Source: Verrucomicrobiota bacterium (lineage in GTDB: Bacteria; Verrucomicrobiota; Verrucomicrobiia; Limisphaerales; JADLHS01). Taken from it: a stretch of DNA of 37,666 bases. The stretch is taken from assembly GCA_025350905.1 (NCBI GenBank), contig JANXWY010000314.1, forward strand, positions 1 to 37,666, in the 5' to 3' direction. This document shows, in pieces, positions 2,586-20,640 of the stretch. The notes beneath the pieces were generated by a model, which searched no databases, was not told the origin of the DNA, and saw only the letters and a list, made by a program, of their open reading frames with translations. Position numbers and translations under genes: made by a program. Within the stretch, counting starts at the first letter, position 1, and every line of letters starts with the position of its first letter.

Positions 2586-5204
2586 ATGAACTGGCACCAA
2601 GTCCGTCGCTACGTGAGTTTGGTGCTGGTTGGCGGAATCCTCGGCCTGGTGTTGGGGTCCGTTTGGATCTTGTCCGGCAATGCGCCTGAATGGTTGCGAA
2701 TGGTGGGGCTCGAAATCCAGGCCGCGTGCCGGGATGCGGAGACGCAGTGGATGGTGATGGTTTGTCTGGTGAGTTACCTGGTGGCGTTTCTGGTTCTCGG
2801 ACGGAGGCTTTTTCAGCCGCAAAAGAACACAGAGAACACAAAAGGGCAAACCCCCTCTCCGCCATCTGTCTTCCGATCTCCGACTTCAATCTCTGCGATC
2901 CTTGCGTTCCTTCGCGGCAATATTTCCCATCCCAACCTCTGGCTCGTTGGTTTGGTGGGAATCGTGTTGTTGCGCTATGCCTTCGCCTACGAAACCGCCG
3001 CGCGGTCGTTGCAGCCGCTGGTTTTGCTGGCAGGGGTTGTCTTTGGCAAGGGCGTCGCTTTGTGGGTCGGGTGGCAGCCAAGTCTAAAGGCCAAAGGCTC
3101 AAGTCTAAAGTTCGGGGAAGGCTGCAATGCGGAATGCCCATCTTTCAACTCTCAACCATCTGCCATCAACAAAGCGCGGGCTATCCTCTGCTTTCTAGTT
3201 TTGCTGCTCGCCTGCGCTTCTCAGTGGCAGCTGGATTCAGGAATGGAGTTTCAATATCGCGGCGTGCACCGTTGGACCGGAGCTTGGGATAATCCCAACC
3301 TTTACGGATTGTTAATCGGAGTTGGGATGGTCCTCGCCATCGGTCTATTCGTCCAAAGTCTAATGGCTAAAGGCCAAAGGCGTGGGAATGCGAACGAGCG
3401 ACACCTCACCCCGGGCCGCTCCCCGAACGAGGCGGAGAGGGGGTCCAGTGCTTCGCCAGCATGGCGTTGGGTGAAAATCATTTTGCTTCTCACAGCGGCG
3501 GGATTCTGCGGCGTTGGATTGGTGAAAAGCTACAGCCGCGGGGCGTGGTTGGGGACGACGTGTGGTTTGGGCTGGTTGTTATGGCAATGGCTTTCACGAA
3601 CCCACCTCACCCAGAACCCTCACTCCCAGCCCCTACCCATGAACCTCCCGGAGGCCGCGTTGATTTCCAAGGACTTGCCGACGGGAGGTTCAGGGGAACA
3701 AATCGCGAGCCTTGGCGGCTCGTGGAATCTCTCCCAGCCGCTGGGCGAGGGTGGCGTCGGACTCTCCCCCCGTCCGCCGGGCGGCGAGGGAGAAGCCCTT
3801 TCGTGTCATTCGTGTGTTTCGTGGTTAAGAAAAGGCCGGCTGCCGATCTCTTTGCTGCTGGCCTCGGTCTTAATTGCCTGCTACTGGCAGTTTCGGCACA
3901 CGGAGAACCCGTTGGCGCGGCGGGTGTTTTCCTTTGCCAACCCCAATGACTTTTCGTGGCGCAATCGCGTGAGCGCCTGGCAGGGAGCGGGCCGCATGAT
4001 GCTCGACAAACCGCTCACGGGTTTTGGTTGGGGCCAGGCGGAGGAAGTTTACGGTAAAGAATATCGCGCGGCGCGGTTGGAGGAAACGGCAGCGATCCAG
4101 TTGAACGACTATCTGACGCTCGGGATTTCGGCCGGCGTGCCAGCGTTGGTCTGTTTCTTCGCTTACAGTTTCTTGTCGGTTCGCCGGGGGATGGGCCAGC
4201 GTCGGCAGGACCTCGGCTTGCCAGTTCATGGCTCCGATGCGCGTCCATCGTTGGAGGTCGAAGATCCCCATAAACCTCCTCCTCACCCGGCCTCCGGCCA
4301 CCCTCTCCCCATCCGATGGGGAGAGGGATCGGGTGAAGGGGACGCGTCCCCGCTATCATCCATCAACTCACAACTTTCAACGATTGCATCAAGCGGCGCG
4401 TTGGTGTTGCTGGTGGGCTTCTGGTTTGATGGTGGCTTGTTCAAACTGCCAACGACGGCGGTGTTCTGGATGTTGGTGGAACTGAGGCAGATTGCCCCTC
4501 ACCCTTCCCTCTCGCCTTCCGAAGGGAAGAGGGTGTTCCCGCAGTCGCAGGGAACGGGTAAGGGGAGATCACTGCGCAACGTCTCGGCCCTCCTCCTCCG
4601 CTGGCTTGCGGGAAGCATGGCCCTCGCCGCCGCGGGCGTGACGGCGTTGCACCTCGTCATTCCCCAACTGGCCGTGAGCGAGCGGACCATGTCCATCGCC
4701 CGCAAGTTCCTTGTGCCACCCAAGGCGAAAAAGGATTTTGAGTCGCTCGCCGCCGAGCCGATCTGGTCGGGCAGGAAACTTGGAACGCTGCTGGAGCATG
4801 TCGAACTGGCGAATTACAACCGCGAACTGGTGAACTGGAAACTCGATGATCAAATTTATCAGCAGTTCGTGTTGTCGCCGCAGATTGATTCGGCACTGGA
4901 TGGCGAAAGGGATTGGCGGCGGCCGTTGTGGGAGAGCCTTTATCCGCGCATTCGGAAGGAAAATAATCTGGAAGCTGCGGCCGCAATCGTGGTGCGGCAC
5001 CTGCGGGAGCGGGTGAAAATTGTAGAACTACATGACGCACCGAGAACGATCACAGAAATCTGGCAGCGGGGGAAAGCGAGCGAACGAGAATTTGAAGATA
5101 TCTGCGTCGCAGCGTTGCGGGCAGCGGGTATTCCCGCGCGGTTGTCGCCATTTGGCCAGAGCGAGTTTGGGAATGGTGTGGAATGGAAGCCCGCGCCGCG
5201 CTAA
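2586..5204 (+). CDS. O-antigen ligase/polymerase (Wzy/WaaL family) with in-frame repeat insertions
   Basis: Polytopic membrane protein of 872 residues. The Wzy_C-like core is visible: a helix pair around residues 240-256, KSYSRGAWLG at about 314-323, a loop ending in DKPLTGFGWGQ (474-484), and LNDYLTLGISAGVPAL (506-521), the usual membrane and periplasmic signature of enzymes that polymerise O-antigen or ligate glycans to lipid A or other acceptors. About 180 residues follow the last helix (670-690) as a soluble tail. The protein is far longer than usual for the family (roughly 400-600). Much of the excess comes from six hydrophilic, Pro/Ser/Gly-rich segments encoded by repeat-like DNA at about 2817-2921, 3078-3173, 3354-3461, 3603-3840, 4209-4394 and 4497-4577. 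All are read in frame and mostly fall in loops between helices. The product may be functional, or the gene may be slowly eroding; the open frame favours function. Confidence 0.85.
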   Translation: MNWHQVRRYVSLVLVGGILGLVLGSVWILSGNAPEWLRMVGLEIQAACRDAETQWMVMVCLVSYLVAFLVLGRRLFQPQKNTENTKGQTPSPPSVFRSPTSISAILAFLRGNISHPNLWLVGLVGIVLLRYAFAYETAARSLQPLVLLAGVVFGKGVALWVGWQPSLKAKGSSLKFGEGCNAECPSFNSQPSAINKARAILCFLVLLLACASQWQLDSGMEFQYRGVHRWTGAWDNPNLYGLLIGVGMVLAIGLFVQSLMAKGQRRGNANERHLTPGRSPNEAERGSSASPAWRWVKIILLLTAAGFCGVGLVKSYSRGAWLGTTCGLGWLLWQWLSRTHLTQNPHSQPLPMNLPEAALISKDLPTGGSGEQIASLGGSWNLSQPLGEGGVGLSPRPPGGEGEALSCHSCVSWLRKGRLPISLLLASVLIACYWQFRHTENPLARRVFSFANPNDFSWRNRVSAWQGAGRMMLDKPLTGFGWGQAEEVYGKEYRAARLEETAAIQLNDYLTLGISAGVPALVCFFAYSFLSVRRGMGQRRQDLGLPVHGSDARPSLEVEDPHKPPPHPASGHPLPIRWGEGSGEGDASPLSSINSQLSTIASSGALVLLVGFWFDGGLFKLPTTAVFWMLVELRQIAPHPSLSPSEGKRVFPQSQGTGKGRSLRNVSALLLRWLAGSMALAAAGVTALHLVIPQLAVSERTMSIARKFLVPPKAKKDFESLAAEPIWSGRKLGTLLEHVELANYNRELVNWKLDDQIYQQFVLSPQIDSALDGERDWRRPLWESLYPRIRKENNLEAAAAIVVRHLRERVKIVELHDAPRTITEIWQRGKASEREFEDICVAALRAAGIPARLSPFGQSEFGNGVEWKPAPR
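2817..2921 (+). repeat. In-frame low-complexity insertion 1 in the O-antigen ligase gene
   Basis: The DNA contains AACACAGAGAACACAAAAGG-type sequence, then GATCCTTGCGTTCCTTCGCGG-type sequence. It is translated as a hydrophilic stretch (about residues 78-112, KNTENTKG...) between two hydrophobic segments. Boundaries are approximate. Its composition differs from the flanking membrane-coding DNA. Confidence 0.6.
3078..3173 (+). repeat. In-frame low-complexity insertion 2 in the O-antigen ligase gene
   Basis: The block has two near-copies of AAGTCTAAAG/GCCAAAGGCT-type words (3080-3112), then CTTTCAACTCTCAACCATCTGCCATCAAC-type sequence (3144-3171). It encodes a polar loop (about residues 165-197) that breaks up a run of hydrophobic helices. 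The same word types recur at 3354-3385 and 4360-4385 in the same gene. Confidence 0.6.
3354..3461 (+). repeat. In-frame insertion 3 in the O-antigen ligase gene
   Basis: It starts with CAAAGTCTAATGGCTAAAGG-type words like those at 3080. It continues with CTCACCCCGGGCCGCTCCCC and GAGGCGGAGAGGGGG (3409-3443), an imperfect inverted repeat of the CTCACCC...GAGAGGG kind. It is translated as a hydrophilic loop around residues 257-292. Confidence 0.6.
3603..3840 (+). repeat. In-frame insertion 4 (composite, about 80 codons) in the O-antigen ligase gene
   Basis: This is the longest insertion. It holds CCTCACCCAGAACCCTCACTCCC-type sequence, a perfect 11-bp inverted repeat TGAACCTCCCG (3640-3650) / CGGGAGGTTCA (3682-3692), a CTCTCCCCCCGTCCGCCGGGCGGCGAGGGAG-type imperfect palindrome (3760-3792), and a TCGTGTCATTCGTGTGTTTCGTGGTT-type word array (3801-3826). 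It encodes about residues 340-420, a Pro/Gly-rich loop before the helix at 421-433. At least three repeat families appear to have landed side by side. Confidence 0.65.
4209..4394 (+). repeat. In-frame insertion 5 with perfect palindromes in the O-antigen ligase gene
   Basis: It contains a near-perfect palindrome, CCCTCTCCCCATC (4301-4313) paired with GATGGGGAGAGGG (4315-4327), and a perfect 14-bp palindrome GGGGACGCGTCCCC (4338-4351). A CATCAACTCACAACTTTCAACG-type word array follows (4361-4382). It encodes about residues 542-603 between two transmembrane segments. Confidence 0.65.
4497..4577 (+). repeat. In-frame insertion 6 in the O-antigen ligase gene
   Basis: The block is CTCACCCTTCCCTCTCGCC followed by TTCCGAAGGGAAGAGGGTG, an imperfect inverted repeat. 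It is another member of the CTCACCC...GAGAGGG family seen at 3409 and 4282. It is translated as a polar loop (residues about 638-664, HPSLSPSEGKR...) between the helices at about 604-633 and 667-692. Confidence 0.6.
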
Positions 5205-16196: not shown

Positions 16197-17041
16197 GGTT
16201 TCCGGGAAGTTGCGTGTTCTTGCAGCCACTTGAAATCCGGATTGCTGGAGGTGCCGGAAGTGAAATGGGCCCCGTCCCCGACACCGCCATTGCGCGCCGC
16301 ATTGATCGTATCTGGGTCACGCCAACGGTGGGCGTCGGTGTGGCCGTCCGCGTAGGCCAGCGTACCGGAAAAGTTATGTTCCACGGAAGGACGATGCCAA
16401 AAGAAAGTAGGACTGCCCATGTAGATCACGAATGCCGAAAAGCAAACGCTCAAGGGTGCGGTGTCAACGAAGGTATATGTCTCAGCCGTGTTGATCGCCG
16501 CCAGGTCGGCTAGCTTGTCGAATTCAAAAAAAGCCGGGTTAACGGGGTTTCCGAGCCCCGTTTGCCAGCCAAAGTAGCAATTAAGCGCATAAGTGCGGAC
16601 ACGCGGGATGGCCTGCCCTCCAATGGAGACAGTCGTGCGGTCGGCCGGGCAACGGTAAACGGTTGGCGTGCGAATGTAATTGGCAAACAAGGCGTATTGG
16701 GGATCAAGCAGGAAATTCGTTCGGCCAAAGTCAGCGGGGAATATATGTTCCGTGCCCATCACCCACAATTGGTTGACGTTTGGCACCGGAGCGACGCTGA
16801 ACCCATTGGCGGCGAATCGCCCGTTGTTGTCGTCCGCGTATAGCTGCCAGGCCAGGGATACTTGCTTGAGGTTGCTGATGCACTGGATGCGATAGGCCTT
16901 GGCCTTGGCCGTGGAGAGGGTCGGCAGCAGCAGCGCCGCCAGCAGCGCAATGATCGCGATGACCACGAGTAGCTCAATGAGCGTGAATGCCGGGTTCGCC
17001 CGCCGCCAGTAGCGGGAATGGCTCATGGGCAATCGCTGCAT
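16193..17041 (-). CDS. Type II pseudopilin-like protein (prepilin N-terminal methylation motif)
   Basis: Protein of 282 residues. After a short basic leader ([18 protein letters not shown]) comes the prepilin peptidase site and helix [22 protein letters not shown], with Glu at +5, then [22 protein letters not shown]-terminal domain has a [12 protein letters not shown]-like segment and ends with the [14 protein letters not shown] motif. This layout is the verrucomicrobial/planctomycetal single-gene pseudopilin (H-X9-DG type), many paralogues of which occur per genome. It is likely processed by PilD-like peptidase and placed in a type II secretion or pilus-like assembly. The start could be the ATG at 17041 or 17026; the frame opens further but would collide with the hisC leader. 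It overlaps thiD by 4 bp. Confidence 0.88.
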
Positions 17042-20560: not shown

Positions 20561-20640
20561 TCTTGATCTTAATCCTTATCGTAATCTTAAACTGTTCGGC
20601 GCCCTGAGATTAAGATTAAGAAAAAGATTAAGCGTAAGAA
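20561..20640. repeat. Imperfect inverted repeat of AATCTTAATC words
   Basis: The left arm (about 20561-20590) reads as TCTTGATCTTAATCC-type words; the right arm (about 20607-20640) as AGATTAAGATTAAGAAAAAG-type words. The two are imperfectly complementary around a GC-rich centre, TTCGGCGCC. It fills the gap between the CPBP stop and the RluA-fusion start. It may act as a terminator or simply be a dispersed element. Confidence 0.6.

Follow-up and report, generated by a model that had tools for sequence, protein, structure and literature searches.

In-frame palindromic repeats within the loops of an O-antigen ligase and other proteins of a verrucomicrobial genome

Background

The DNA analysed here is a stretch of 37,666 nucleotides from a Verrucomicrobiota bacterium (contig JANXWY010000314.1, assembly GCA_025350905.1), which we call the window; it is the entire contig C155 of a draft genome of 6.27 Mb, 95.5% complete. 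It contains a gene for an O-antigen ligase (Wzy_C) in which six polar blocks encoded by repeat-like DNA lie between the conserved segments of the protein, and the question raised by this locus is where the blocks came from and how one gene could hold all of them without losing its reading frame. In all likelihood, the blocks are short non-autonomous repeats of a mobile type, retained in the ligase gene by keeping the frame within tolerated loops. Copies of the palindromic component of the blocks, which we refer to as the element, are dispersed through the genome and share a fold; many lie in frame inside genes, few of the genic copies break the frame, most of the orthologous sites examined are empty, and purifying selection acts on the ligase core. 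The observation is confirmed and extends beyond the ligase gene.

The ligase gene and its six loops

The host gene (positions 2586..5204, plus strand) is an open frame of 872 codons with a match to the Pfam model Wzy_C (PF04932; E-value 1e-8, 35.5 bits against the curated cut-off of 31.7). The core of the protein is that of a WaaL-type O-antigen ligase, from which the window protein differs by six repeat-filled loops and by a fused C-terminal domain, approximately residues 670-872. An alignment of the window protein, its paralogue encoded on contig C222 of the same genome, and eight homologues from seven relatives shows a conserved membrane core and six hypervariable loops.

All six blocks are read on the plus strand. 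Block A (2817..2936) consists in frame of AACACAGAGAACAC words, at 2826-2839, and TGCGATCCTTGCGTTCCTTCGCGG words; it is common to the paralogue, with 112/120 nucleotides identical, and is absent or different in the other aligned homologues. Block B (3079..3180), also in frame and common to the paralogue (85/102 nucleotides), is made of AAGTCTAAAGG words, at 3080, and CAACTCTCAACC words, at 3146-3157. Block C (3353..3465) combines AAGTCTAATGGCTAAAGGCCAAAGG words with a degenerate, weak CTCACCC palindrome at 3402-3473, which scores 14.5 bits (E-value 0.68) under R1, our covariance model of the element; the paralogue has the AAGTCTAA words of this block but other sequence where the window has the palindrome. 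Block D (3600..3838) holds several repeat pieces, including TTCGTGTCATTCGTG at 3800-3814, and its portion at 3617-3735 has a 97% copy on contig C182. By the alignment and the R1 model, block E (4200..4390) is a loop that contains an intact palindromic element together with CAACTTTCAAC words. Block F (4494..4589; residues 637-668), delimited by the alignment and an AlphaFold2 model, is the loop that joins the ligase core to the C-terminal extension. The paralogue thus shares blocks A and B together with the words that open C, and diverges in the remainder of C and in D-F. Between the two genes, block A reaches 93% identity and the adjoining stretches 71% and 87%, so that identity drops both ways, as after gene conversion.

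Six polar, repeat-like blocks in an open 872-codon frame had been proposed in an initial annotation of this DNA made from the letters alone, and both the frame and the named words are confirmed. The same annotation put the added length at "roughly 200-300 residues", which agrees with the alignment: between conserved anchors, loops A, B, C, D and E of the window protein have 44, 43, 50, 86 and 83 residues, where the aligned ligases range over 13-83, 15-78, 24-62, 11-104 and 31-97, and the excess over the shortest homologue is 31, 28, 26, 75 and 52 residues, 212 in total, to which block F contributes about 32 more. Its placement of most blocks in predicted loops is likewise borne out: in the alignment the loops are variable and orthologues lack the blocks or differ there, with coil predicted at most of the blocks. 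The AlphaFold2 model, built with 17 sequences (mean predicted local distance difference test score, pLDDT, 69; predicted template-modelling score 0.58), models blocks A, B, D, E and F as coil of low confidence that connects helices: pLDDT falls below 50 at residues 84-86, 88-99, 166-189, 347-408, 547-563, 567-584 and 640-665, all within these blocks. Block C is predicted coil with pLDDT below 50 only in part (286-288), and low-scoring stretches outside the blocks are found at 21-33 and 217-220. Mean hydropathy is -0.24 to -1.61 in the blocks and +0.54 in the core, and the extra loops of the ligase are probably floppy.

A decaying pseudogene that gathers debris might be expected to look similar, since a paralogue exists and the inserts are unusually long. 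Against this explanation, 872 codons are open, the ratio of nonsynonymous to synonymous substitution rates in the core is 0.26 over the 480 codons compared between the window gene and its paralogue, which indicates purifying selection, core residues are preserved across genera, and equally long loops are found in some ligase orthologues of other genera. We consider it very improbable.

The C-terminal extension (4590-5204) looks like a gene fusion. It gives a weak match to a transglutaminase core, and its counterparts in relatives are C-termini of separate open reading frames with hydrolase-type matches, in locus L267 directly downstream of the ligase frame. The C-terminus of the paralogue breaks down into a GGACAnnGTTCCG-type repeat array close to a contig end (L062, 3890-4190).

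A dispersed palindromic element

When positions 2800-4600 were compared with the whole genome by BLAST, dozens of matches were found around 4281-4340, and unrelated parts of the genome proved to resemble the loop of this one gene along about 60 nucleotides, with 80-94% identity. The palindromes of the CTCACCC...GAGAGGG form that the initial annotation had picked out are indeed present: an intact copy at 4279..4340 on the minus strand, i.e., opposite to the gene (82.2 bits with R1), which reads in frame as PPHPASGHPLPIRWGEGSGEG, and a diverged copy at 4495..4565 on the gene strand (47.8 bits), which reads as APHPSLSPSEGKRVFPQSQGTGKG; the third, in block C, is far weaker. Two places recognised by R1 within the 2619 nucleotides of the ligase frame compare with 0.03 expected (P about 0.0005).

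The consensus of 23 aligned copies, CCCCTCACCCCGTCCCTCTCCCCATCGGATGGGGAGAGGGTGGCCGAAGGCCGGGTGAGGGG, is 62-63 nucleotides long and has sharp ends. It folds into a three-way junction made of an outer stem of 10 base pairs, a hairpin of 12 base pairs and a hairpin of 4 base pairs, and it is bounded by terminal inverted repeats of 10 base pairs, CCCCTCACCC/GGGTGAGGGG, in which 96.8% of the alignment cells are paired; over the whole fold the figure is 96.5% of 572 cells. None of 500 shuffles reaches the observed percentage of paired cells, number of cells with both partners changed (10) or covariation score, and the strongest covariation is at pair 43-52 in the third hairpin, which is GC, UA, AU or GU.

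A search of the genome with R1 gave 112 matches at E-values of 0.01 or less, representing at least 77 distinct places, a lower bound because scoring covered 150 of the 3728 first-look candidates. Copies with 65 bits or more, 32 of the 77 places, were taken as well conserved, and the length of the element is 60, 62 or 63 nucleotides in 32/32 of them. The main frame from the first base is free of stop codons in nearly all intact copies and in both orientations, so that an insertion in phase adds about 21 mostly hydrophilic residues. Four loci with the element gave no match in Rfam at E-values of 1 or less. The core pattern, with up to two mismatches allowed, is found in 23/57 genomes, at 47 places in this genome, 103 in G036, which belongs to another family, and 79 in G007, which belongs to another genus.

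The blocks might also be ordinary fast-evolving linkers, grown by local slippage and point mutation, with a repeat likeness that is merely compositional. The word families, which are low-copy here and consist of imperfect 7- and 9-nucleotide units, would fit such an origin. For the palindromic element it is already refuted by occurrence at at least 77 places, sharp ends, paired substitutions and the close matches of one loop to unrelated places, and for the blocks as a whole we regard it as unlikely.

In-frame placement within genes

Classified by the coding character of their flanks, the 77 places comprise 35 in frame within a single open frame, 5 out of frame with coding sequence on both sides, 10 with coding sequence on one side, 22 in noncoding DNA and 5 at contig ends. 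Among the 32 well-conserved places, 23 are in frame, 2 are out of frame between coding flanks, 3 have one coding flank, and 4 are noncoding on both sides. The 23 include copies in UvrA, MutS, LigA, KsgA, RecN, TrpE and RlmN. Once a copy lies in a gene, its preference for the frame is strong: 23/25 such copies are in frame, and simulated insertions into coding DNA remain in frame in 606/2500 cases with no target duplication and in 1019/2500 with a duplication of one nucleotide (23/25 versus 1019/2500, P about 1e-7). In the best 30 copies of each of the two other element-rich genomes, 12/30 in G036 and 9/30 in G007 are in frame, with 1 and 3, respectively, out of frame between coding flanks; there, the excess holds only for in-frame placement within genes. 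An all-against-all repeat scan of the genome sample and the window revealed 46 regions with other repeats, of which 10 lie at contig ends and only 2 are in frame, one of these being the element in the window; in-frame placement is therefore not general to the repeats of this genome.

The 35 in-frame places fall into 34 open reading frames, of which the 33 other than the ligase were scanned with NCBIfam. Ten exceed the cut-off, namely ABC-F, RlmN, UvrA, MutS, LigA, KsgA/RsmA, RecN, DusB, ValS and HsdR; the copy in DusB scores 51.4 bits and so stands below the 65-bit set. One further frame passes only a short N-terminal domain model, and matches below the cut-off, in some cases perhaps through truncation at the end of the locus, were found to TrpE, a PabB-like protein, a PcrA/UvrD-like protein, a MurQ-like protein and a second UvrA. 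DNA repair proteins may be over-represented among the hosts: UvrA twice, MutS, LigA, a UvrD-like protein and RecN. In two relatives (L302 and L327) the element lies between the ADFG and GTP motifs of protein-kinase-like frames, a stretch which we take to be the activation loop.

Occupied and empty sites in related genomes

Sixteen host sites were queried in eight relatives; one site (C111) was dropped for few matches, so that the comparison covers 59 loci at 15 sites, three or four per site out of a larger number available. By eye, 53/59 of these orthologous loci have no recognisable element, and many hold another peptide in the loop. The exceptions are TrpE of G003, UvrA of G001, a methyltransferase of G004 and a possible remnant in the second UvrA of G004; KsgA of G003 and of G004 have longer inserts of another palindrome type. 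Codon-wise views show that the codons of the element are absent from 4/4 DusB, 4/4 MurQ-like, 3/3 HisC-like and 3/4 FAD oxidoreductase loci, and for KsgA, DusB and LigA the best homologues in the PDB, as aligned, have no such segment. The element of LigA lies between two cysteine pairs, presumably those of a zinc finger.

Some sites are occupied outside this genome. In G007, an independent draft genome, the identical UvrA and MurQ-like sites are occupied, and the orientation matches too; since the junctions recur there, misassembly was considered and rejected. In UvrA of G001 the same loop holds the element inverted, preceded by a similar tract of AGTCCAA heptamers, and TrpE of G036 and TrpE of this genome likewise hold it in the same loop in opposite orientations. 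Either insertion into tolerated loops has recurred, or the element inverts where it stands via its terminal inverted repeats. At the UvrA loops of L222, L147 and L307, from three genomes, the element adjoins an AGTCCAA-type heptamer tract and is inverted in one. The implication of the initial annotation that distant genera would lack the same blocks holds in part, given the UvrA and MurQ-like sites occupied in another genus and a piece of loop D (GGEGES.S..HSC) that is also found in G006, again of another genus.

Could the inserts have been selected for, as polar loop extensions that diversify the ligase and other proteins? In several ligase homologues of other genera, peptides coded by other repeats occupy these loops, and the frame preference goes beyond stop avoidance: at 26/35 in-frame places the element begins with the first base of a codon, where 49% would be expected from open frames alone (P 0.002). 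Against such a role, the hosts are functionally unrelated, most of the examined orthologous loci do without the insert, and most of the ligase blocks are predicted coil. We find selection for the inserts improbable and favour retention of mobile-type repeats where they are tolerated.

The non-palindromic words and other repeats

The words that make up the rest of the blocks are of a different standing. AACACAG, AAGTCTAAAGG, CAACTCTC and TTCGTG words are rare in this genome, AACACAGAGAACAC occurs a single time in 6.27 Mb, and TTCGTGTCATTCGTG has 1 exact occurrence and 5 in all with at most one mismatch; with the same tolerance, it is found 89 times in G048 and 29 times in G053. For blocks A and B, the matches listed by BLAST against the genome, with 40 of 147 first-look candidates scored, are to the paralogue only. 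Exact counts of tandem words in the genome sample are zero. With looser patterns, TTCGTG, TGCGTTC and TGCGGA slightly exceed chance in the sample and AAGTCTAAAG and CAACYYTCAAC do not, which makes most words low-copy at best; a loose TTCGTG-tandem pattern has 2 occurrences in the window against an expectation of 0.0 (five shuffles of 422 kb). We read the words as putative relics of low-copy repeats. The initial annotation envisaged several unrelated repeat families in one gene, each multiplied in the genome; the palindrome is so multiplied, and wide dispersal in this genome is established for this CTCACCC family only, out of five families with the four non-palindromic ones.

A second dispersed repeat, with the core ACGTCGGCTGCTAC, was seen at L126 and other loci of the sample (8 pattern matches in 422 kb against 0.0 expected), and LTSAAT, a peptide that it could encode, recurs inside proteins here and in relatives. 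Elsewhere in the window, the contig end (37451-37625) is a high-copy repeat on which as many as 11 matches from other parts of the sample fall, 20561-20639 is a palindromic repeat with TTAATC-type arms that is present elsewhere in the genome, and 16827-16992 is a portion of a multi-copy gene family whose N-terminus we take to be prepilin-like.

Flanks, transposases and relation to known repeats

The flanks of the 32 well-conserved copies show a weak symmetric preference, picked out of 24 flank columns and uncorrected for that choice: purines at -6 and -5 in 28/32 and 26/32, and pyrimidines at +5 and +6 in 25/32 and 27/32. Complementarity of the flanks, which would point to hairpin targets, was considered and rejected, as nothing on the diagonal is clearly above expectation.

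Repetitive extragenic palindromes (REPs) of the GTAG/CGTC class are moved by REP-associated tyrosine (Y1) transposases, and the element could be one of them or close kin. The genome has 16 Y1_Tnp loci, one of which lies between two weak palindromes that resemble the element (22.2 and 21.4 bits) in a stretch that also carries TTCGTG-like and TGCGTTC-type words. Among 10 Y1 loci of G036 and G007, one has a partial match to the element (34.9 bits). Such weak or partial matches make linkage to Y1 transposases a lead and are not convincing. According to PMC3733652, a report of 2013, intragenic in-frame REPs are present in Opitutus terrae, where both uvrA genes and a DNA ligase are among the hosts, and intragenic REPs also in other species; the likeness extends to in-frame inserts of about 20-30 residues, to the uvrA and DNA ligase hosts in a verrucomicrobium and to several repeat families per genome. 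The element differs in that it is longer than the 20-40 base pairs given for REPs and forms a three-way junction where they form one short stem. The GTAG and CGTC tags, sought up to 12 nucleotides outside or 6 nucleotides inside an end, are present in 3/32 and 8/32 copies, without excess over the approximately 7-8/32 that we estimate for chance. Further, REPs of this class are mostly intergenic, and most intact copies of the element are genic, with 4/32 noncoding on both sides and 3/32 coding on one side. We therefore think membership in this class possible but doubtful.

Rickettsia palindromic elements, to which the initial annotation likened the blocks, are described in PMC10969869, PMC2229807 and PMC6649704 as palindromic, dispersed, stop-free and in frame within conserved genes, as well as intergenic. 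The comparison is apt as regards a dispersed palindrome, in-frame positions in protein genes (35/77 of all and 23/32 of well-conserved places) and orthologues without the insert (53/59), and the phenomenon is not confined to Rickettsia, given the intragenic REPs of Opitutus terrae; PMC3733652 classes the shorter RPE-4 and RPE-6 as REPs. The element here has 62-63 nucleotides as opposed to about 150 base pairs in PMC10969869, belongs to another phylum, and was compared by description. Bacterial miniature inverted-repeat transposable elements with fusions to open reading frames (ERIC/RU, Correia), as outlined in PMC2229807, are similarly non-autonomous, with terminal inverted repeats and in-frame fusions. 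The present element is shorter and lacks a clear target-site duplication, and no parent insertion sequence was found in an examination confined to Y1_Tnp loci. Searches for the terms Verrucomicrob, intragenic and CTCACC in the main text of the 2025 REP survey (PMC12306157), and for Verrucomicrob, Opitutus and CTCACC in PMC2267715, found no occurrence; the literature searched gave no description of this element, which is no proof of its absence from print. The element is a separate family of an already known kind of in-frame mobile palindrome.

Origin of the blocks

We propose that short non-autonomous DNA repeats of a mobile type would insert into the ligase gene, and that insertions would persist where the frame stays open and the protein loop tolerates extra residues. 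The element would transpose in trans by means of some enzyme, and the inserted peptides may be translated, disordered and nearly neutral; blocks A and B may be relics of other low-copy repeats, and the loops of the ligase may form an especially tolerant sink.

Several observations weigh against this proposal. A clear target-site duplication is not seen: direct repeats that flank the well-conserved copies are of 2 nucleotides in 5/32, of 3 nucleotides in 1/32 and never longer, and sequence divergence limits the test at empty sites. None of the 26 Y1 loci, examined together with flanks of about 1.5 kb at most, has a full-length element beside it, and there is no clear transposase link. Two of the five covariation measures are within the range of shuffles, namely the number of covarying pairs (2; reached by 211/500) and further pair types (63/500). 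Copies below 65 bits are in frame in just 12/45. The share of well-conserved copies in genes is mildly above that of random windows in this genome (23/32 versus 2039/4000, or 51%; P 0.02) and below it in G036 and G007 (random windows in frame 372/761 and 456/752), and these shares are rough, as the coding classifier was home-made, with a hexamer score and flanks of 240 nucleotides, trained on this genome and applied also to the other two. Occupation of the UvrA and MurQ-like sites in another genus implies that insertion was old, that copies were transferred or that the sites were hit more than once. Between the paralogues, no DNA is as conserved as block A, which is not what plain neutral junk predicts. 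Finally, because their words are rare here, blocks A and B would be assigned to mobile repeats by resemblance only.

More tentatively, and at odds that we put below even, the element may be a gene-friendly selfish one, with a palindrome that evolved to be stop-free in the main frame of both strands, a weak symmetric target (R-6 R-5 / Y+5 Y+6) and a capacity for in-place inversion without a break of the frame. It would live largely in conserved genes, and tolerant proteins such as the ligase would be sinks in which unrelated repeat families repeatedly lengthen the same loops. UvrA would be an example of such inversion, its loop element running one way in this genome and G007 and the other way in G001.

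Significance

Rickettsia and, in the form of REPs, a few other bacteria are the best-known carriers of in-frame mobile palindromes, of which a separate family is found here in verrucomicrobial genomes of 4.6-6.5 Mb. Genes of DNA repair, RNA modification and biosynthesis are unusual hosts for a structured repeat; according to one survey (PMC2267715), structured repeat families are mainly intergenic. The PLTRPSATLSPSDGERDGVRG and PHPxxxHPLPIGWGEGRGEG peptides are repeat-coded and so produce spurious protein similarity, which is a warning for annotators. Related genomes with and without the element form natural before-and-after pairs for the acceptance by proteins of about 21 foreign residues.

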